In this document: in pieces, positions 1-35,966 of the stretch
How the letters are laid out: every line of letters starts with the position of its first letter
How positions within the stretch are numbered: the first letter of the stretch is position 1
From: an uncultured bacterium
Lineage (GTDB): Bacteria; Bacillota; Clostridia; Peptostreptococcales; Anaerovoracaceae
Length of the DNA stretch: 37,775 nucleotides
Assembly (NCBI GenBank): GCA_905214225.1
Contig: CAJMLL010000023.1
Location: 1-37,775 of the forward strand
Reading direction: 5' to 3'
Notes under the pieces: model-generated
The model's database searches: none
Told to the model about the DNA's origin: nothing
Seen by the model: the letters and a program-made list of their open reading frames with translations, nothing else
Position numbers and translations under genes: made by a program

Positions 1-53
1 CCTATGACCTCCTGCTTGTAAGGCAGATGCTCTCCCAGCTGAGCTAAGCGCCC
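1..53 (-). tRNA. tRNA-Val (anticodon UAC), 3' part cut off by the window edge
   Basis: Read on the minus strand, position 53 starts GGGCGCTTAGCTCAG, a typical acceptor strand and D-arm. The anticodon stem-loop follows, with anticodon TAC at 18-20 in the loop CTTACAA. The window ends in the variable loop/T-arm, so the T-arm and the 3' acceptor strand are missing. The visible part matches the usual bacterial tRNA-Val(UAC) layout. Whether more tRNA genes follow to the left cannot be seen. Confidence 0.93.
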
Positions 54-26037: not shown

Positions 26038-27384
26038 ATGGATGTAGCAATCGTAGGTGCCGGCAAGCTTGGCTACAAGGTTGCAGAAGCGCTTTCCAAC
26101 GGTGACTATTCCGTTACGATCATTGACAGAAAAGAAGCCCTGCTGGATAAAATTTCTCAGCATCTGGATGTGATGACCATCAATGAAGATGCGCGGAGAA
26201 TGTCAGTCCTTCAGGATATCGGCATTGAACACTTTGACTATCTGCTGACGGCAACATCGAACGATGAAATGAACATCGTCATCGCCGCTATGGCAAAGAA
26301 ACTCGGATGCCGCCACGTTATCGCCAGAGTCAGAGACCCGGAGCACATGAACCAGATCGATCTTCTCCGTGAAACCTTCAATCTGGATGTGATCGTTAAC
26401 CCGGATCTTGCGATTACGGAAGAGATTTATAAATATCTGGCAGAAAAATACACGCTGCAGAACGGAATCTTCACCACAGGAAAAATCTCCATGATTGAGT
26501 TTGAGGCGAAGAATTATTCCAAGCTGATCGGCTGCTCTATCACGGAAATCCGCTCTATTTTCCCGGACTTCCTGGTCCTGGCACTGTCCCGCAATGGCAA
26601 GGTCATCATCCCTCACGGAAATGACACAGTCGAGCAGTCTGATCTTCTGTACATGCTCGGAGAAAGGGATAAAATCGGCTCCCTGCACAGGAAAGTCAAT
26701 AAAAAGCGCTCCACGCAGCTCCGCAAGGTGATGATCATTGGCGGAGGAAAGACCGGCTATTACCTGTCTCAGAAGCTGGCTGATTTCGGCGCTGCCGTAA
26801 AGCTGGTCGAGCAGGATCTTGCCCGCTGCCAGTATCTGGCCACGCAGCTTCAGAATGTCATGGTTCTGCATGTTGACGGAACAGACATTTCCACGCTGGA
26901 AGATGAGAACATGGACGGCATGGACGCATTCGTCACCGCAACCGGATATGATGAAGAAAACCTGCTCCTGGCTCTGACTGCCAAGAGACGCGGTATTCCG
27001 GATGTTATCGCCAAGGTCAGCCACGAAAACTACGTGGACCTGATCGAGGAAATGGGTGTCGATATGGTGCTGAATCCGCTGGACATCACCGCAAGCAATA
27101 TCCTGCGTGAAATTCAGGGAACCAGCAGAATCATTACTTCTGTACTGATTCAGGGTCAGGCAGAACTGATTGAAGTCCGTGCCCAGAGCGGCATGAACTT
27201 CCTCGGAAAGCCGATTTCCGAACTTCCTCTTCCGGACAGCATCCTTATCGCTGCCATCGACCGCGAAGGACAGCTGATCATCCCGGACGGAGATACGAAA
27301 ATCAAGCGGAACGATCATGTGATCATGCTTTCGCTTCTTTCCAGCATCAGCAGTCTGGAAAAACTGCTCAAGCCAAAAAGATAA
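26038..27384 (+). CDS. trkA: TrkA, cytoplasmic nucleotide-binding regulator of the Trk potassium system
   Basis: 448 residues, two tandem RCK units as in TrkA of E. coli. RCK1-N starts with VAIVGAGKLGYKVAEAL (residues 3-19), and RCK2-N with VMIIGGGKTGYYLSQKLADF (about 231-250). Each is followed by a TrkA-C domain (about 140-220 and 370-448). The protein forms a ring under the TrkH channel and gates it on ATP/NADH, or on c-di-AMP in some Gram-positives. The start ATG 26038 has AAAAGGAG seven bases upstream. Two TrkH subunits follow on the same strand, so all three are probably one operon. Confidence 0.95.
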   Translation: MDVAIVGAGKLGYKVAEALSNGDYSVTIIDRKEALLDKISQHLDVMTINEDARRMSVLQDIGIEHFDYLLTATSNDEMNIVIAAMAKKLGCRHVIARVRDPEHMNQIDLLRETFNLDVIVNPDLAITEEIYKYLAEKYTLQNGIFTTGKISMIEFEAKNYSKLIGCSITEIRSIFPDFLVLALSRNGKVIIPHGNDTVEQSDLLYMLGERDKIGSLHRKVNKKRSTQLRKVMIIGGGKTGYYLSQKLADFGAAVKLVEQDLARCQYLATQLQNVMVLHVDGTDISTLEDENMDGMDAFVTATGYDEENLLLALTAKRRGIPDVIAKVSHENYVDLIEEMGVDMVLNPLDITASNILREIQGTSRIITSVLIQGQAELIEVRAQSGMNFLGKPISELPLPDSILIAAIDREGQLIIPDGDTKIKRNDHVIMLSLLSSISSLEKLLKPKR

Positions 27385-27416
27385 GATCTGCGGCTGTTTA
27401 ACAGAAACTTATTCTG

Positions 27417-27437
27417 CCTCGCGAATTTTTCGCGGGG
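27417..27437 (+). other. Hairpin between trkA and trkH
   Basis: CCTCGCG (27417-27423) pairs with CGCGGGG (27431-27437), one G-U pair, around a T-rich loop. No T run follows the stem, so it is more likely an intercistronic stabiliser or partial attenuator than a terminator. Confidence 0.4.
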
Positions 27438-27476
27438 CACTTGAATATATATAGAAATGGGATTGAACTTACTGCA

Positions 27477-28943
27477 ATGAATATCACCATGAAAAACATC
27501 GTCCGACTGATCGGCGTAATCATATTTGTAACAGGTCTCGCGATCTTTCCGTCTCTGATCACGGCATTCATCTACCATGAAATGAAATCTGCGGTCTGCT
27601 TCGGCGCAACGATGGGTATCTGCATCCTTCCGGGCCTTATCATCATGAAGGCCCTCCCTGCAGAATCCTTTAAAATGCATCAGCGTGACAGCTATCTGTA
27701 TGTCACCCTGACCTGGTTCATCGTCTCTCTGGTCGCCGCCGTTCCTCTGACCGCTTCCGGAGCGATTCCTCATTACTACGATGCATTTTTTGAAATGTGC
27801 TCGGGATTTTCAACCACTGGATCTACCATTCTTTCGAATGTAGAAGCCCTGCCGAAGTCGATGCTGTTCTGGCGCTCTTTCACCCATTGGCTGGGAGGAA
27901 TGGGAATCATCGTCTTCACAGCGGCCATCATGCCGAACCTGGGAATTTCCGGACAGTCTATCGCAGAGGCTGAGGCGCCTGGCCCGACCATGGATAAACT
28001 GACCGCAAGATATACCGATACCGCAAAGAACTTATACCTCCTCTACTTCGGCATTACGATTGCAGAGACCATCCTGCTGATGCTGGGAGGCATGAATCTC
28101 TATGATGCTCTGGTTCAAACATTCGGTACAGTCGGAACAGGAGGCTTCTCCAACTACGGCGACAGTATCGCGCACTTCACCAGCCCGTATATTCAGTGGG
28201 TTATCATCATCTTTATGCTGATGTGCGGAACCAACTTCAACCTGTATTTCGGCATTCCAAAATACGGACCGAAGGCCCTGCTGAAGGACTCTGAATTCCG
28301 TCTCTACATGGCGGTCGTTCTGGCGACGACGGCAGGAATCACCATCAACCTGATCGCCTGCGGAATCATCAAAAGTCCTTTCAAGAGCCTGACCGCGGCG
28401 GCCTTCCAGGTGTCTTCGCTGATCACCACAACCGGCTATGCAACCAAGAATTATGACCTGTGGCCTACCTTCTCCAAGATGATGCTGATGATCACCTTCC
28501 TGACCGGAGCCTGCGCCTCTTCAACCGGAGGCGGCCCGAAGATCATCCGTGTTCTGGTAGCCCTGAAAATGATCAGACGAAGCATTGCGCTGAAAATTCA
28601 TCCGTCCAGAGTCTACACCATCAAGGTAAACGGAAAGCCGGTTGAGCGGGAAGTGCTGACCAACATTTCCAACTTTATCTTTTTCTACATCGCAGTTCTG
28701 TTCATCGGCTGCATCATCGTCGGACTGAACGGCTACGATGTCATGACGACATTTTCCTCGGTACTGACCTGTCTGGGAAATGTGGGGCCTGGATTTAATA
28801 AAGTCGGCCCGATTTACAACTTCGGATTTTTTGCGCCATGGGCAAAAATTGTTCTTTCTGTGCTGATGATCGCCGGACGTCTGGAACTGTTCACGGTTCT
28901 GACCCTGCTTTCGCCGCGCTACTGGAATTCGAACAAAAACTAA
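27477..28943 (+). CDS. trkH: TrkH potassium channel subunit
   Basis: 488 residues, integral membrane protein with four M1-P-M2 repeats. All four selectivity-filter glycines are kept: CSGFSTTGSTIL (P1), GTVGTGGFSNYG (P2), LITTTGYATKNY (P3) and LGNVGPGFNKVG (P4). The gating loop in the third repeat is the canonical ASSTGGGPKIIRVLVALK, and SFTHWLGGMGIIV follows P1. It forms the K+ pathway regulated by TrkA encoded just upstream. The start is uncertain: ATG 27477 (MNITMKN) is preferred, but it has only a poor ribosome-binding site; TTG 27441 and ATG 27489 are alternatives. Weak initiation would fit coupling to trkA. It is followed by a second, different TrkH. Confidence 0.93.
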   Translation: MNITMKNIVRLIGVIIFVTGLAIFPSLITAFIYHEMKSAVCFGATMGICILPGLIIMKALPAESFKMHQRDSYLYVTLTWFIVSLVAAVPLTASGAIPHYYDAFFEMCSGFSTTGSTILSNVEALPKSMLFWRSFTHWLGGMGIIVFTAAIMPNLGISGQSIAEAEAPGPTMDKLTARYTDTAKNLYLLYFGITIAETILLMLGGMNLYDALVQTFGTVGTGGFSNYGDSIAHFTSPYIQWVIIIFMLMCGTNFNLYFGIPKYGPKALLKDSEFRLYMAVVLATTAGITINLIACGIIKSPFKSLTAAAFQVSSLITTTGYATKNYDLWPTFSKMMLMITFLTGACASSTGGGPKIIRVLVALKMIRRSIALKIHPSRVYTIKVNGKPVEREVLTNISNFIFFYIAVLFIGCIIVGLNGYDVMTTFSSVLTCLGNVGPGFNKVGPIYNFGFFAPWAKIVLSVLMIAGRLELFTVLTLLSPRYWNSNKN

Positions 28944-29014
28944 GCACAGTCCGGCAGGCGTCCCCTTGCCGATGTGTATTTTGTCCGTAATGCTGAATGA
29001 AAATATGAGGTTCA

Positions 29015-30472
29015 ATGATGAAAATCAATAATCGACTGCTCTATAAAACATTTTCGGCAGTATATATTCCGCTGGGCTGTTCCATGCTGATTCCACTGCT
29101 GCTGGCAGTGATTCAAAAAGACAGCAGCAGCCTGACCGCCTTTCTTATTCCGGCGGTTCTCTGCCTTCTAATCGGCGGATTCTGCATGCTGGTGCTGAAG
29201 AAGAGCAAGACTCTCTCGGAACGGAAAATGCTGATCAGGGACGGTTACCTGATGGTCGCTTCCGGCGCGCTGATCCTTCTTCTTCTGTCCGCCCTGCCTT
29301 ACTGGATCTGCGGAAAACACATCGGTTTCGTTGACGGCTGGTTCATGTCCGTATCCTCCTGGACAACTACAGGAACCTATTCGGTTCCCTGCGGAGACCT
29401 GACAGATGCCCTGATGCTCTGGCGCAGCATGAACTGCTGGATGGGCGGATTCGTGATGCTGGCTGTCGCAATCACGATTTTCCAGAAACTGGGAATCAAT
29501 GAACAGGGACTGCTCAGCGGTCCTTCTGCAATCAGCAAACAGAGTGCCAAGCTGACCGCGCACTTTACCGGAACCGTAAAGATCCTGCTCTACTTCTATA
29601 TTGCGATGACTGCGGCAGAACTGGTTTTTCTCGCCTTTTCTGACATGACCTTTTTCAGTGCCCTGCTGAACACCCTCAGCAATGTCAGCACTTCGGGAAT
29701 GATCGGAATTTCGAAGTCTGCAGACACGTCCTATATCCGGATCGTCATGACCGTTTTTGCTCTGCTGGCGTCCATCAACTTCTTCGAATACTATTACGTC
29801 CTGACCCGGCATCACGTGTCGAAGAACTATGAAGTCCGTTCCTACCTGTCCATCATCGCCGTTGCGGTCATTGTGATCACCGCAGATCTGATGATTACAG
29901 GAAAATATCATAATGTAGTCAATGCATTGAGAGACGCGCTGACCGTCTGCGTCTCCACTTCATCGACCTCCGGTTACGCGGCTTCCCTTTCCAGTTCCTG
30001 GCCGACGACCAGCATCTTCATTCTTCTGTTCCTCATGATGATCGGAGGATGCAGCATCTCTGCGGCCAGCGGAATCAAGGTCACCAGAGCGGTCGTCTTC
30101 TGGAAGCTGATCATGCGAGGGATTTACAAACGTATTCATCCGCGGTCAACCAGGGCGGTCATTGTCCACGGACATAAAATTCCTGCAAGCAAGGCTTCCT
30201 CCATCACGGTGTTCATCATGCTGTTTTTCCTGATCGTGATCGTCGCGGCAGTGGTTGTCAGCCTGGATAACCAGAGTCTGGACACCACCTTCTACGCCGT
30301 CATCGCATCGCTGACCAACTCCGGCGCCTTTGCCGGAAAGCTCGCGTCCGGAGACTACAGCATCTTCAGCATGCCGATCCGCTTCTTCCTGTCCCTTCTG
30401 ATGATCATCGGACGTTTCGGAATCTACCCGGTCGTTGTGCTGTTCTCAACTTCTTTCTGGAGAGAGAAGTAG
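29015..30472 (+). CDS. Second, divergent TrkH-like channel subunit
   Basis: 485 residues, TrkH/KtrB superfamily with the same overall layout as its neighbour but strongly diverged. Filter regions: SSWTTTGTYSV (P1), NVSTSGMIGIS (P2), STSSTSGYAAS (P3), SLTNSGAFAGK (P4); each keeps one glycine at the filter position. The gating loop is altered: where the first TrkH has ASSTGGG, this one has SISAASG before IKVTRAVVFWK. The motif after P1 is NCWMGGFVMLA in place of HWLGGMGIIV. The protein could pair with the first TrkH to make a heterodimer, or act as a separate channel with other selectivity. ATG 29015 is followed directly by another ATG (29018); GAGG lies four or seven bases before them. The gap to trkH is 71 bases. 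Confidence 0.88.
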   Translation: MMKINNRLLYKTFSAVYIPLGCSMLIPLLLAVIQKDSSSLTAFLIPAVLCLLIGGFCMLVLKKSKTLSERKMLIRDGYLMVASGALILLLLSALPYWICGKHIGFVDGWFMSVSSWTTTGTYSVPCGDLTDALMLWRSMNCWMGGFVMLAVAITIFQKLGINEQGLLSGPSAISKQSAKLTAHFTGTVKILLYFYIAMTAAELVFLAFSDMTFFSALLNTLSNVSTSGMIGISKSADTSYIRIVMTVFALLASINFFEYYYVLTRHHVSKNYEVRSYLSIIAVAVIVITADLMITGKYHNVVNALRDALTVCVSTSSTSGYAASLSSSWPTTSIFILLFLMMIGGCSISAASGIKVTRAVVFWKLIMRGIYKRIHPRSTRAVIVHGHKIPASKASSITVFIMLFFLIVIVAAVVVSLDNQSLDTTFYAVIASLTNSGAFAGKLASGDYSIFSMPIRFFLSLLMIIGRFGIYPVVVLFSTSFWREK

Positions 30473-30500: not shown

Positions 30501-31802
30501 ATGCAGCCATTATCTGTACGGATGCGCCCGGACAGCCTGGAAGAGTTTGCCGGACAGCGGCATTTCCTCTATCCGGGCTCGCTTTTTGTCCGGGCAGTGA
30601 AAAACCATAACTTTCATTCCGCGATATTCTTCGGCCCTCCGGGAACGGGAAAAACCACCCTTGCCCGCATCATCGCCAGGACGATGGACAGCGAGTTCCA
30701 TGAGATCAACGCGTCTGTCTCCGGAACCAGAGAGCTGAAGGAAATCCTGGACGGCGCCCGCCTGAAGTTCTACGGACTGCAGCGCCGGTCCACGGTTTTG
30801 TACGTGGATGAAATCCACCGCTGGAACAAGCTTCAGCAGGACGCCCTTCTGAAAGCATTGGAAGAAGGCGTCATCCACCTGATCGGAAGCACCACGGAAA
30901 ATCCGTATTTTTCTGTGAATAAAGCGATCTTAAGCCGTGTAAGAAATATTTATGAATTTTATCCGCTGAAAAAAGAGGATCTTGTGATCCTGATGAAACG
31001 AGCGCTGAAGGATCCGAGAAAGGGGCTGGGCAGCATGGATCCGCCGCTTTCTGCAGAGGAAGATGCACTTTCTCTTCTCGCAGAATTTTCTCAGGGAGAT
31101 GCCAGGGCCGCACTGGATACCCTCGGCTTCATTGCAGAGAATCTTCCCGAAGATGACCGGAGAATAACAAAAAAGGCTGTCGGGGAGGCTCTCCAGCGGA
31201 AGGTCAACAATTACGATGAGTCCACGGAATATGATCTTCTTTCCGCGCTTCAGAAATCCATCCGGGGCAGCGACCCGGACGCCGCGATCTACTATTTCTC
31301 CCGTATGGCGGACGCGCGCTGCGATCTGATGACAATCGGAAGAAGGCTCATGGTGATCGCTTCTGAGGACATCGGCATGGCCTACCCTTCCGCAGTATCC
31401 ATCGTCACCTCCTGCGTGCAGGCTGCCCAGATGGTCGGCTGGCCGGAAGCCGGAATCAATTTAAGCCAGGCCGTAATTCTTCTGGCTTCTTCACCGAAGT
31501 CCAACTCGGTTGTGAAGGCCTATCAGGAGTCCTTAAATGACGTGAGAACCAGAGAAGCAGACCCGATTCCTGCTCATCTGCGGGACGCGCATTACAGCGG
31601 AGCAGAGAAACTCGGTTACGGAAAGGACTATCTCTATCCGCATGATTTCGGCGGCTATGTAAAGCAGCAGTATCTCCCGGACAATCTGGAAAAGGCAGGC
31701 GTGTCCTATTACCATCCGACGGAAAATGGATCAGAAAAACAGTTTAAACATTTTCTCCGGCAGCTGGACGAGAAGCTGGGGAATAAGAAAGGAAAGAGAT
31801 AA
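30501..31802 (+). CDS. rarA: RarA/MgsA replication-associated recombination ATPase
   Basis: 433 residues, clamp-loader-like AAA+ ATPase that acts at stalled replication forks. The family start RMRPDSLEEFAGQRHFL is followed by Walker A FGPPGTGKTTLA (about 48-56), Walker B VLYVDEIHRWNK, sensor 1 GSTTENPYF and the SRVRNIYEF box. The C-terminal half carries the MgsA helical domain with SAIQKSIRGSDPDAA-like text (here ALQKSIRGSDPDAAIYYFSR), EDIGMAYP and the late GYGKDYLYPHDF and YLPD blocks. AAGGAG lies six bases before ATG 30501. It starts 28 bases after trkH2 and ends directly at the ATG of ispH-rpsA, so all may be cotranscribed. Confidence 0.95.
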   Translation: MQPLSVRMRPDSLEEFAGQRHFLYPGSLFVRAVKNHNFHSAIFFGPPGTGKTTLARIIARTMDSEFHEINASVSGTRELKEILDGARLKFYGLQRRSTVLYVDEIHRWNKLQQDALLKALEEGVIHLIGSTTENPYFSVNKAILSRVRNIYEFYPLKKEDLVILMKRALKDPRKGLGSMDPPLSAEEDALSLLAEFSQGDARAALDTLGFIAENLPEDDRRITKKAVGEALQRKVNNYDESTEYDLLSALQKSIRGSDPDAAIYYFSRMADARCDLMTIGRRLMVIASEDIGMAYPSAVSIVTSCVQAAQMVGWPEAGINLSQAVILLASSPKSNSVVKAYQESLNDVRTREADPIPAHLRDAHYSGAEKLGYGKDYLYPHDFGGYVKQQYLPDNLEKAGVSYYHPTENGSEKQFKHFLRQLDEKLGNKKGKR

Positions 31803-33794
31803 ATGGAAATCATCAGAGCGCAGCACAGCGGCTTCTGCTTCGGTGTCAAGAAGGCCGTAGAAACTGCCTATCAAGAGACAGAAAAGCTGAAGGATCATCC
31901 CGGCCGGCTCTTCACCCACGGCCAGCTGATTCACAACCGCGACGTTACCGACGAACTGGAAAAAAGAGGCGCGCAGATCATCGAGGATCTCTCTGAGGTC
32001 CCAGAAGGGTCAACGGTAATCGTCCGCTCCCATGGAGAGACAAAAGAATTCTACCAAGAGGCTGAAAAGGACGGAATCCGTCTGGTGGACACCACCTGCC
32101 CCTTTGTTTCCCGGATTCACCAGCTGGTGCAGGACGCCTGGAAGGATGGGAAAAATGTCGTGATTATCGGAGATAAAAAACACCCGGAGGTCATCGGAAC
32201 CAACGGATGGTGTGAGAACCAGGGGATGATATTAGGCAGCGCGGAGGATGCTGAGGATTTCCCTTGCAGATCAGCCTTTGTCGTCTGTCAGACCACCCTG
32301 CGTGAAGAGACCTTCGATTCTGTCATCGAAGAACTGAAGCGCCAGAATGTGGAACTTGAAATACACAACACCATCTGCAGCGCCACGGCCCAGAGACAGA
32401 AAGCGGCGGCGGAACTCGCGAAAAAATGCGATGCGATGGTGGTTTTAGGGGGCAGAAATTCATCCAACTCAAGAAAACTTTACGAAATCTGCCAGAAATA
32501 CTGCCCAAACTCGTTTTTTGCCGAAAATATTAATGATTTGCCATTGAAACAATTGAGAAATTGTAATAAAATAGGTGTTGCGGCAGGTGCATCGACGCCT
32601 GAACGTACTATCAAGGAGGTTACTACTGTTATGAGTGACAATATCACTAACGAAACTGCAAATTCGATGGAAGCTTTCATGGACGAAATCGATGCATCTT
32701 TGAGACTCCCACACACCGGCGAGATCGTAACCGGTAAGGTTGATCAGGTAAATGACGACGAGGTCATCGTCAACCTGGGCTGCAAGAAAGATGGAATCCT
32801 GACAGCGCGCGAGGTTACGCTGGAAGAAGGACAGACACTGACAGACATGTTCCATGTCGGCGATGAGGTCCAGGCCAAGGTCATCAAGACTGACGACAAC
32901 GACGGCGGAATTCTGCTGTCCAAGAAGAGACTGGAAGTCAACAAGCACTGGGATGAAATCAATGAAGCACTTGAAAATAAGTCAAATATTGAGGTCAAGG
33001 TTGTCCGTGTTGTTAAGGGCGGCGTAATCGCAGCTTACAAGGAAGTATCCGGATTCATTCCACTCTCCCAGCTGTCCAACAGATATGTTGAGAGCGCAGA
33101 TGAGTTCCTGGGACAGGTTCTGACTGTAAAGGTTTCCCGTGTTGATCAGAGAAGAGGCAGAGCTGTATTCTCCCACAAGGCTGTACTGGCTGAGGAGAGA
33201 CAGAAGAAACTGGACCTGATCTGGGATACTCTGAAGGTTGGCGACATCGTAGAGGGAACCGTTATGAGATTCACCGACTACGGCGCATTCGTAGACCTGG
33301 GCGGAATCGACGGACTGCTCCACATTTCCGAAATTTCCTGGGGCAAGCTGAAGCATCCTGACGAGGTTCTGAGCATCGGCGAAAAGATCAACGTCAAGAT
33401 CCTGAACATGAACCGCGAGAAAGGAAAGATTTCCCTCGGCCTGAAGCAGACAACACCGGAGCCATGGTCTGTAATTAACGAGACTTATCATGTTGATCAG
33501 ATCGTCAAGGGCAAGGTTGTTCAGCTGAAGGAGTACGGTGCATTCGTAGAGCTGAAGCCGGGCCTGGACGGACTGGTACACATCTCTGAGGTTGCAAACA
33601 AGCACGTTAACAACATCAGTGATGAGCTGACTGTAGGTCAGGAAGTCTACACAAAGATCCTGGACATCGATACAGAGAGAAGAAGAATCAGCCTCTCCAT
33701 GAAGCAGGTTCCGGAAGACTACAAGCCGGAAGAGGAAGAAGCTGCTGATGCTGAGGAAGCACCTGCAGAAGAGTCTGCTGAGGACGCTGAGTAG
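31803..33794 (+). CDS. ispH-rpsA: IspH (HMBPP reductase) fused to ribosomal protein S1
   Basis: 663 residues in two known modules. Residues 1-276 are IspH, the 4Fe-4S enzyme that ends the MEP isoprenoid pathway: cluster cysteines Cys12, Cys99 and Cys192, the HPEV glutamate (129) and the NSSNS substrate motif. Residues 277-663 are a four-repeat S1 protein (about 306-376, 393-460, 476-548 and 562-634) with the classic GAFVDLGGIDGLLHISEIS in repeat 3 and a glutamate-rich tail. Such IspH-S1 fusions are known in clostridia. The start at ATG 31803 follows the rarA stop with no gap; AAGAAAGGAAAG lies inside the rarA end. Oddity: Met277 has its own AAGGAGG and a promoter-like sequence upstream, and the DNA at about 32510-32590 is far more AT-rich than its surroundings. 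A strong terminator follows at 33814. Confidence 0.95.
   Translation: MEIIRAQHSGFCFGVKKAVETAYQETEKLKDHPGRLFTHGQLIHNRDVTDELEKRGAQIIEDLSEVPEGSTVIVRSHGETKEFYQEAEKDGIRLVDTTCPFVSRIHQLVQDAWKDGKNVVIIGDKKHPEVIGTNGWCENQGMILGSAEDAEDFPCRSAFVVCQTTLREETFDSVIEELKRQNVELEIHNTICSATAQRQKAAAELAKKCDAMVVLGGRNSSNSRKLYEICQKYCPNSFFAENINDLPLKQLRNCNKIGVAAGASTPERTIKEVTTVMSDNITNETANSMEAFMDEIDASLRLPHTGEIVTGKVDQVNDDEVIVNLGCKKDGILTAREVTLEEGQTLTDMFHVGDEVQAKVIKTDDNDGGILLSKKRLEVNKHWDEINEALENKSNIEVKVVRVVKGGVIAAYKEVSGFIPLSQLSNRYVESADEFLGQVLTVKVSRVDQRRGRAVFSHKAVLAEERQKKLDLIWDTLKVGDIVEGTVMRFTDYGAFVDLGGIDGLLHISEISWGKLKHPDEVLSIGEKINVKILNMNREKGKISLGLKQTTPEPWSVINETYHVDQIVKGKVVQLKEYGAFVELKPGLDGLVHISEVANKHVNNISDELTVGQEVYTKILDIDTERRRISLSMKQVPEDYKPEEEEAADAEEAPAEESAEDAE
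32544..32572 (+). promoter_or_regulatory. Candidate internal promoter for the S1 part of ispH-rpsA
   Basis: TTGAAA (32544-32549), 17 bases, then TAAAAT (32567-32572), 5/6 in each box, inside an AT-rich island within the ispH coding part. The start would be near 32579, about 50 bases before the in-frame ATG 32631. Confidence 0.55.
32613..32633 (+). promoter_or_regulatory. Internal Shine-Dalgarno and in-frame start codon of S1
   Basis: AAGGAGG (32613-32619), 11 bases, then ATG (32631-32633). The ATG is codon 277 of the fusion frame and starts MSDNITNETANSMEAF, the point where the S1 module begins. A seven-base perfect anti-16S match at a domain boundary suggests a former or still active start for separate S1. 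Confidence 0.65.
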
Positions 33795-33813
33795 TTCTGA
33801 CAAAAGCTATTTC

Positions 33814-33845
33814 GGGCAAGCGCGTAACGTGCTTGCCCTTTTTTT
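33814..33845 (+). terminator. Strong rho-independent terminator after ispH-rpsA
   Basis: GGGCAAGCGCG pairs with CGTGCTTGCCC (one G-U pair) around a TAA loop, followed by seven T (33839-33845). It lies 20 bases after the stop codon. The next 150 bases up to rnr hold no gene; TTCCC-TTC-GGGAA near 33930 is a minor hairpin. Confidence 0.92.
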
Positions 33846-33998
33846 ATCTGCATACAGGTACGAATAAATACAGTTTCGCAGCGGATATAATTTCTGAAGA
33901 AATCTGTTGAAGCGCCGGCTGCCCTTCCCTTCGGGAAATACAGAGGCTTTTCATCCGAAATCATCTAGAACCGAAATCATTAACAGCTAAGGAGAATT

Positions 33999-35966
33999 AT
34001 GAGTAAACGCAAACATACACCCGCCATCCAGGGACGTCTGGATAAAACAAAATCCGGAAACGGATTCGTCGTCATGGAAGACGGAGACGATATTTTTATT
34101 GATCAGGAGAACATGAGAGGCGCGATGAACGGCGATCTGGTTCAGGTTGACCTGCTCCCGGAGATCTACTGGGACAGAAGACCGGAAGGAATCATCGACC
34201 GGGTTCTCGACCGGGGACGCGAAGAAGTCATCGGTACCTACCACCGCAGCGGAAAGAACGGATTCGTTGCACCGGTCGCGAAAAACGACAAGGAGTGCGT
34301 ATTCATCCGCGGACACGCAAACGGGAAAGCAAAAGACGGAGACAAGGTACTTGCCAGGATCACCCGCTACCCTTCCCGCCCGGACGAAAATGCCGAAGGA
34401 AAAATCATCGACATCATTGCCAGGAAAGGGGCAGCCGGAGCAGAAATCAAAGCCCTGATCCGTTCTGCAGGCCTGCATGAACAGTTCCCGTCCCCTGTTG
34501 AAGCTGAAGCCGCAAGATGCGCTTCAGAAACGCTCTCAGAAGAAGATCTGGCCAGAAGGAAGGATCTGCGGAACGAACTGATCCTGACCATCGACGGTGC
34601 AGATTCCAAGGATCTGGATGATGCCGTCTCCGTAAAGAAGCTCCCGGATGGAAACTGGCTGCTCGGCGTCCATATCGCCGATGTCGCACACTTTGTCACC
34701 GAGGGAAGCCGGCTGGACAAGGAAGCAAAAAAGCGCGGAAACAGTGTTTACCTCCTGACTCGCGTCATTCCTATGCTTCCGAAATCCCTCTCCAACGGCG
34801 TCTGCAGCCTGTTTGAAGGTGCAGACCGGCTGACCCTGTCCTGCGAGATGAAAATCAGTCCTTCCGGAGAGATCCTGAGCCATGAGATTTTTGAGAGCGT
34901 AATCCGTTCAAAAGCCCGCATGGTCTACGACGACGTCTCGGATATGCTGGAGGATGACAAGAGCCCCTTGATCAGCCAGTATTCTGATTACCACGGCTTC
35001 GACATCTACTCCGCACTGAAAGACATGGCAGAACTCGCAGCAATTCTGAACAAAAGCAGAATGAACAGCGGCAGCATCGATTTTGAGCACGAAGAAGCAG
35101 AGATCATTCTGGACAATCAGGAAAATCCTGTCGATATCCACCCCGCCGACCGCCGCGTTGCAAACCGTCTGATTGAAGAATTCATGCTCGCTGCAAACAG
35201 GACCGTAGCCGAGCATTTCTGCCGCATGCACATTCCCTTTGTCTACCGAGTCCATGAGCAGCCGGAAGCGGTCAAAATCGAGGAAATGAAGCACTTCCTG
35301 GCCTTCTTCGGGATCACCCTTCATACAAAAAAGGATACGCTGCCTCCGGAGGAACTCAGCCGTATCCTGAAACTTGCTGAGGGAAAGCCCTATGAGAACA
35401 TCGTCAGCACCGTGCTCCTGCGTTCGATGACCAAGGCCTATTACAGCCCGGACTGCACCGGCCACTACGCCCTTGCATTCAAGTATTACTGCCACTTCAC
35501 CTCCCCGATCAGAAGATATCCGGACCTGATGATCCACCGCATCATCAAGCTCATCCTGAACGGAAATAAGAATGAGCTGCGCAGAAAATTCTGGATTTCC
35601 GCCGTTGAAGACGCTTCTGTACATTCTTCAGATACCGAGCGCGCCGCCCAGGAGCTCGAACGTGATGTGGACAAGCTGAAGATGGCGCAGTACATGAAGA
35701 AGTTCATCGATGAAGAATACGACGGCATCATCAGCGGCGTTACCGAATTCGGTATCTACGTCCAGCTGGAAAACACCGTGGAAGGCCTGGTTCCGATCTC
35801 CACCATGAATGACGACTTCTACAACTTCGAGGAAAGCCGCTACCGGCTGATCGGGTCTGCAACGAATAAAATCTACGCACTGGGCGATCCGGTCCGGATC
35901 CGGGTTACGGATGCCCGCCCGGAAGAACGGCAGATCGACTTTCAGCTTGTGACAGAGGAAGAATAG
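33999..35966 (+). CDS. rnr: Ribonuclease R (RNase II family 3'-5' exoribonuclease)
   Basis: 655 residues. It degrades structured RNA from the 3' end and takes part in RNA quality control. N-terminal cold-shock/OB domains (about 1-140; KSGNGFVVMEDG, YHRSGKNGFVAPV) precede the RNB catalytic domain (about 185-510) with the acidic site DGADSKDLDDAV (199-210; Asp199, 205, 207 and 208) and the ALAFKYYCHFTSPIRRYPDL motif. A C-terminal S1 domain (about 570-650) closes it with DGIISGVTEFGIYVQL. It is shorter than many RNase R proteins (700-800) because it lacks the N-terminal helix-turn-helix and the basic C-terminal tail. AAGGAG lies four bases before ATG 33999. The gene converges with the DUF6382-like gene, leaving only five bases between the stops. 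Confidence 0.95.
   Translation: MSKRKHTPAIQGRLDKTKSGNGFVVMEDGDDIFIDQENMRGAMNGDLVQVDLLPEIYWDRRPEGIIDRVLDRGREEVIGTYHRSGKNGFVAPVAKNDKECVFIRGHANGKAKDGDKVLARITRYPSRPDENAEGKIIDIIARKGAAGAEIKALIRSAGLHEQFPSPVEAEAARCASETLSEEDLARRKDLRNELILTIDGADSKDLDDAVSVKKLPDGNWLLGVHIADVAHFVTEGSRLDKEAKKRGNSVYLLTRVIPMLPKSLSNGVCSLFEGADRLTLSCEMKISPSGEILSHEIFESVIRSKARMVYDDVSDMLEDDKSPLISQYSDYHGFDIYSALKDMAELAAILNKSRMNSGSIDFEHEEAEIILDNQENPVDIHPADRRVANRLIEEFMLAANRTVAEHFCRMHIPFVYRVHEQPEAVKIEEMKHFLAFFGITLHTKKDTLPPEELSRILKLAEGKPYENIVSTVLLRSMTKAYYSPDCTGHYALAFKYYCHFTSPIRRYPDLMIHRIIKLILNGNKNELRRKFWISAVEDASVHSSDTERAAQELERDVDKLKMAQYMKKFIDEEYDGIISGVTEFGIYVQLENTVEGLVPISTMNDDFYNFEESRYRLIGSATNKIYALGDPVRIRVTDARPEERQIDFQLVTEEE

Follow-up and report, generated by a model that had tools for sequence, protein, structure and literature searches.

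Conserved internal start signals in clostridial ispH-rpsA fusion genes suggest a nested gene for ribosomal protein S1

The DNA analyzed here, referred to as the window, is a stretch of 37,775 nucleotides (contig CAJMLL010000023.1) from an uncultured bacterium of the Anaerovoracaceae within the class Clostridia. It carries a gene in which ispH is fused in frame to rpsA, the gene of ribosomal protein S1 (Table 1). The fusion forms a single unbroken frame with the LYTB domain once (residues 3-277) and four S1 stretches, and its match to NF000907, which spans residues 1-656 and scores 762 bits where the cut-off is 624, places it in this fusion family. A gene for a RarA/MgsA-type AAA ATPase (30501-31802) lies directly upstream, and a gene for RNase R begins downstream at 33999. 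Elsewhere in the window, a TrkA gene is followed on the plus strand by two TrkH-like genes (26038-30472), and a partial tRNA at the window edge (1-53, minus strand) is the sole Rfam match at gathering score.

Table 1. Positions of the ispH-rpsA fusion gene, its parts and its observed or predicted signals in the window.
Feature	Position	Strand	Basis or remark
ispH-rpsA fusion gene	31803..33794	+	663 aa, 74.0 kDa; open reading frame, NF000907, LYTB and four S1 stretches
IspH part, residues 1-276	31803..32630	+	TIGR00216 match over residues 2-276
A+T-rich stretch 5' of the -35 element, putatively UP-element-like	32505..32543	+	binned A+T content, near group
-35 element TTGAAA of internal promoter P1	32544..32549	+	conservation of Leu248 as TTG
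-10 element TAAAAT of P1, 17-nt spacer	32567..32572	+	column scan against shuffles
Predicted transcription start, about 7 nt 3' of the -10 element	32579..32579	+	position only
Leader hairpin CAGGTG-6-CGCCTG	32584..32601	+	between P1 and the Shine-Dalgarno sequence; covariation of third-base pairs
Shine-Dalgarno sequence AAGGAGG for S1	32613..32619	+	Lys/Glu codon choice; unfused ispH as control
Nested S1 reading frame, 387 aa, 43.1 kDa	32631..33794	+	ATG in frame with the fusion
Terminator-like hairpin (33814-33838) followed by a T run	33814..33848	+	11 pairs, 8 of them G-C, then TTTTTTTATC

The first-pass annotation of this DNA had drawn attention to an A+T-rich island inside the fusion, holding a promoter-like TTGAAA-17-TAAAAT, an AAGGAGG 40 nt after the -10 element and an in-frame ATG at the start of the S1 part, and all of these elements are indeed present. 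The island is evident from a G+C content of 0.36-0.40 in 100-nt intervals from 32450 to 32699, as compared to 0.46-0.59 earlier in the ispH part. The patterns TTGAAA-17-TANAAT and AAGGAGG-11-ATG, both written after the site had been seen, each occur once in the window, with 0.05 and 0.09 occurrences expected, respectively. A looser promoter scan of positions 31000 to 34500 returned 2 sites against 1.9 expected, which is chance level and weak evidence from a single sequence, and the scan was therefore not taken as proof. Furthermore, the C-terminus of IspH (I-K-E-V) itself provides part of the Shine-Dalgarno (SD) sequence, so that codon choice in related genes becomes the required test. The window sequence by itself is suggestive of an internal promoter and start, and it is the comparison with relatives that makes a strong case for them.

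The main text of Rao et al. (2015; PMC4746011) covers 447 IspH-RPS1 fusion sequences, describes the organisms that carry them as having no other rps1 gene, and proposes a moonlighting role of the fusion on the ribosome. Among 35 genomes from the window's clade, drafts that may be incomplete, 33 likewise show no second S1 at E<=1e-40; taken together with the statement of Rao et al., this means that the fusion gene must meet the demand of the ribosome for S1. Two genomes, G045 (locus L063) and G056, carry an additional S1 gene besides the fusion. When the S1 part was used as a query in a protein search, most of the best 120 of 7953 matches were fusions, and about 20 of these 120 are without a LytB domain, some of them on contigs longer than 30 kb. 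Among the latter are P0010, P0064, P0067 and others, which are of S1 length and close to the S1 of the window. Such matches may represent fragments or broken frames, gene calls that begin at the inner start, or unfused genes.

The null hypothesis of the comparison was that the bases in question are dictated by the C-terminus of IspH. A codon alignment of the first 420 residues was built from 125 fused genes, namely that of the window, 38 found around Eubacterium pyruvativorans, the nearest species with a name, and 86 loci from 245 evenly drawn genomes of the class, 148 of which gave a match at E<=1e-130, with 90 of the genes read and 58 not. These fusions were divided into 37 near genes, the window's clade, and 88 far genes; membership of the near group was settled after the first alignment had been seen, and L041 was moved by hand from near to far. 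Left out before counting were L004-L006, which are the same genes as L001-L003, and L007-L011, which are other S1-domain genes. L056, whose frame is broken inside S1, was counted neither as fused nor as unfused, and L014/L015 and some other near-identical pairs were counted separately. The 21 unfused ispH genes that served as controls are those met in the searches and are not evenly drawn. Codon expectations were computed from each gene's own codon use, which was also the null of a synonymous-constraint profile, where the other columns of the alignment control for shared ancestry. Promoter-like sites were sought in all columns 5' of the S1 ATG at a threshold of at least 9/12 and compared with 100 synonymous shuffles. 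As a hold-out, a later search of 119 genomes of the family gave 107 with a match at E<=1e-150, and 43 genes were obtained from previously unused genomes (23 supplied as loci and 20 from weaker matches); 36 of the 43 were evaluated by script and the remaining 7 by later scripts, pattern search or eye. Since the sequences are related, printed P-values are too small, and weight was placed on controls within the same alignment, on reciprocal clades, on the unfused genes and on the hold-out.

In the first four genes aligned, the -35 element and the SD sequence were unchanged and adjacent synonymous sites varied. The full set extends this observation, as 122 of 125 fusions have a GGAGG 5' of an in-frame ATG, at a distance of 11 nt in 119 genes and of 8 nt in 3, and GGAGG-ATG recurs in 43 of 43 hold-out genes. 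The conservation exceeds what the protein demands, as would be expected of a nested gene. Wherever residue 272 is Glu, its codon is GAG (124/124; 38.3 expected, 13.0 near and 25.3 far), and wherever residue 271 is Lys, its codon is AAG (94/94; 43.4 expected, 18.5 near and 24.9 far). Where Lys271 is replaced, the SD core is mostly kept, with AGG, GAG, CAG, GGG or TTG preceding GAG-G. The highest synonymous constraint within the first 420 residues falls at about residues 237-282. The 11 nt that separate GGAGG from ATG in most fusions make a somewhat long gap for an SD sequence; the 8-nt cases, and the 9 nt seen in an unfused gene described below, come nearer to the usual distance.

Of the 21 unfused controls, only one has GGAGG, none has Met at the column of the S1 start (as compared to 121 of the 125 fusions), and those with Glu at the SD position use GAA seven times and GAG twice. 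Chance combined with protein constraint would make the motifs a mere spelling of I-K-E-V and of L-K ... K-I-G, in keeping with the chance-level scan of the window and with K-E-V belonging to the end of IspH, but this explanation is contradicted by the codon-use and synonymous-shuffle tests as well as by the Glu codons of the unfused genes, and we consider it hardly credible. The site also lies at a domain border and its codons are kept, as they would be if the SD-like run were a pause site that delays ribosomes at the passage from the IspH to the S1 domain in aid of folding, with the fusion as the sole product. Such a pause, however, requires neither a Met at fixed spacing nor a promoter, is at odds with the three genes whose ATG stands at 8 nt instead, and leaves the promoter-like sites P1 and P2 described below unexplained; we regard it as improbable.

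The few departures from the rule were inspected by eye. Among the 125 fusions, the S1 Met is preceded by an AGGAG at 11 nt in L044 and by an AAGGAG at 12 nt in L045, and L133 has GAGAGG 11 nt before the ATG. Ten further fusions, from 20 genomes of the class that lay below the threshold, all show GGAGG 8 or 11 nt before ATG (10/10, by eye), a count outside which the candidate G062 (L180) from these genomes lies. In three additional fusions, likewise read by eye, GGAGG-ATG is present in L155 and L159 and absent from L153, where the ATG is preceded by GGTGAGGG and the S1 start has no GGAGG. L044, L045 and L153 are distant fusions without the I-K-E-V...M junction and perhaps go back to separate fusion events. 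Fusions of the Fusobacterium type, with six S1 repeats, may likewise have arisen separately; Clostridium thermocellum is a non-pathogenic carrier of the fusion. The single unfused ispH gene with GGAGG, L177, has a stop codon and is accompanied by a separate rpsA in another frame, whose ATG sits within the end of ispH, 9 nt after GAGGAGG (reverse strand, about 2570-2620). The site is thus positioned to start S1 even when the two genes are unfused, and the overlap could represent the stage before a fusion arose or the reversal of one.

Within the window's clade, the internal promoter P1 is conserved as well. Leu248 is encoded by TTG in 37 of 37 near genes as compared to 4.3 expected, even with CAA, CAT or AAT instead of AAA as the next codon, and Ile257 by ATA in 34 of 36 (5.6 expected). 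The P1 column holds a promoter of at least 9/12 in 36 of the 37 near genes (shuffle mean 3.0, largest value 9 in 100 shuffles), the sole exception being L034 with TTGCAT as its -35 element. The -10 element reads TAGAAT in Eubacterium pyruvativorans. The flank is rich in A+T, which in the near group makes up 0.73 and 0.81 of the two 15-nt bins covering positions -120 to -91 relative to the ATG, as compared to a gene mean of 0.53. In the hold-out, TTG occupies the -35 position in 43 of 43 genes and P1 reaches at least 9/12 in 35 of 43 (by script alone 31 of 36, against 2.9 expected); L217, below this threshold, reads TTGAAT-17-TAAGAT by eye. P1 thus combines near-consensus -35 and -10 hexamers, whose spacing of 17 nt lies within the range of 16-18 nt, with conservation beyond coding constraint, as is characteristic of a sigma-A-type promoter.

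The presence of P1 in all fusions was considered and rejected, as promoter-like sites near the ATG occur in 22 of 85 far genes against 19.1 expected. At the P1 column itself, 13 of the 88 far genes carry a P1-like site, slightly above the shuffles (mean 8.0, largest 12), and outside the window's clade similar sites are scattered. The constraint profile of the far group has a further peak at residues 181-199, in which a second promoter-like site, P2, is found. It consists of a TTGNNA-like hexamer and, after 16-18 nt, TACAAT within Asp-Thr-Ile-Cys codons (for example in L079, L111 and L136), and in window numbering it lies about 260 nt 5' of the S1 ATG. In the column scan, P2 appears in 45 of 88 far genes (shuffle mean 12.9, largest 21), 43 of them within one clade of 51 genes in a FastTree tree built without the junction. 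In this clade TACAAT is present in 47 of 51 genes, Thr190 has the codon ACA in 48 of 51 (19.5 expected), and Ile191 the codon ATA in 47 of 50 (13.8 expected). Reciprocally, position 190 is ACA in 2 of 37 genes of the window's clade (10.7 expected), and TTG encodes one of the nine Leu residues at position 248 in the 51-gene clade. P1 and P2 are thus reciprocal between clades, which points to two lineages with promoter-like sites at different distances from the same S1 start.

No clear conserved promoter column was seen in the 37 fusions outside both clades. Nearly all of these 37 (of 125) have the SD-ATG, as would fit internal initiation on a single long transcript, with hexamers that do not work as a promoter. 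Codon choice, however, maintains both P1 hexamers at a spacing of 17 nt, together with the A+T-rich flank, throughout the window's clade and in the hold-out, and initiation on the long transcript as the whole explanation is therefore unlikely. The first-pass annotation had looked to conservation of both SD sequence and promoter at the junction in related species. For the SD-ATG this holds more widely than it had supposed, in nearly all sampled fusions of the class, and for the promoter in the window's clade only. It had also named, as evidence against its interpretation, conservation of these elements no greater than the codons require; this comparison leaves the interpretation standing, with 20 of 21 unfused ispH genes free of the SD sequence.

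A leader hairpin adds a further conserved feature. Among the 2512 third-base pairs within 12 codons in the near group, the two of this hairpin hold ranks 1 and 12. They are paired in 35 and 34 of 36 hold-out genes, as compared to 25.2 and 26.9; this set leaves out L228 and six genes with an altered G-A-S motif. The far group gives ranks of 9 and 157 among 2649, with a single pair of the two standing out, and a hairpin common to all fusions is not claimed. At the 5' end of a transcript, the hairpin could protect the RNA or regulate S1.

The elements exist and are kept as DNA beyond the requirements of the protein. From this we infer that the promoter and the start are active, as well as the ratio of their products. 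The gene most likely yields the 74 kDa fusion and a separate 43 kDa S1 from the internal promoter and SD-ATG, with a probability of about 0.87 as judged from sequence comparison. This agrees with the two products proposed in the first-pass annotation, which gain support from SD codons and promoter hexamers kept beyond the expectation from amino acids and codon use. Transcripts from upstream would give rise to IspH-S1, the source of the IspH enzyme, and the sigma-A-type promoter within the ispH part would produce a short transcript on which the strong SD sequence and the ATG at 32631 would direct synthesis of separate S1. Ribosomes on the long transcript could use the same SD-ATG as well. The cell could thereby make S1 in excess of IspH from one gene, apparently its only source of S1, and separate S1 would presumably exceed the fusion. 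Cleavage of the fusion protein, in place of a second start, would solve the same dosage problem; observations in its support were not seen, the conserved codons, Met and promoter would remain unexplained as DNA, and it carries next to no weight. A more far-reaching reading can be put forward tentatively, as possible rather than probable. In it, separate S1 would be the general rule of the fusions of the class, with the SD-ATG kept, the place of the promoter varying and the hairpin controlling synthesis, perhaps through S1, and the fusion would be a minority form through which some ribosomes carry an Fe-S enzyme as a tag, giving translation a built-in signal of a redox or isoprenoid kind.

The fusion gene of the window belongs to the same family, NF000907, as the fusions treated by Rao et al. 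(2015; PMC4746011). Their main text regards the fusion as one bifunctional protein and contains "start codon", "Shine", "promoter" and "internal" zero times, whereas here the S1 part has a conserved start of its own and a clade-specific promoter. The open-licence literature, outside which most subscription papers lie, yielded nothing on a start or promoter inside the ispH-rpsA fusion; PMC12605070 has a single mention of the subject, and the passages covered from the C. ljungdahlii paper (PMC6203783) contain nothing on the start of the fusion gene. The reading as one bifunctional protein has so far served as a hint of a tie between IspH and the ribosome. Should a large share of S1 be made separately, the ribosomes of these bacteria need not carry IspH, the dosage problem between enzyme and ribosome would be solved within one gene, and in many genomes the annotation would lack a product that is an essential ribosomal protein. 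The purpose of the fusion becomes directly testable through synonymous silencing of the internal start or promoter. Moreover, codon choice alone can reveal regulatory DNA that overlaps coding sequence.

In-frame nested genes with an internal start are known from infB, with its forms of IF2, from the short form of cheA, and from clpB. These resemble the arrangement proposed here in that a second, shorter product of the same frame arises from an internal start. Unlike in these genes, the nested product would be a complete ribosomal protein whose fusion partner is an enzyme unrelated to it, and a promoter as well as an SD sequence is involved, class-wide and with promoter positions that differ. 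In E. coli, a promoter of rpsA has been reported inside the upstream gene cmk, which likewise places an S1 promoter within an upstream coding sequence, but in the fusions the upstream and downstream genes form one continuous reading frame. In-frame nested genes as such are thus already known; what is notable here is the breadth of the arrangement and its bearing on a puzzling fusion.
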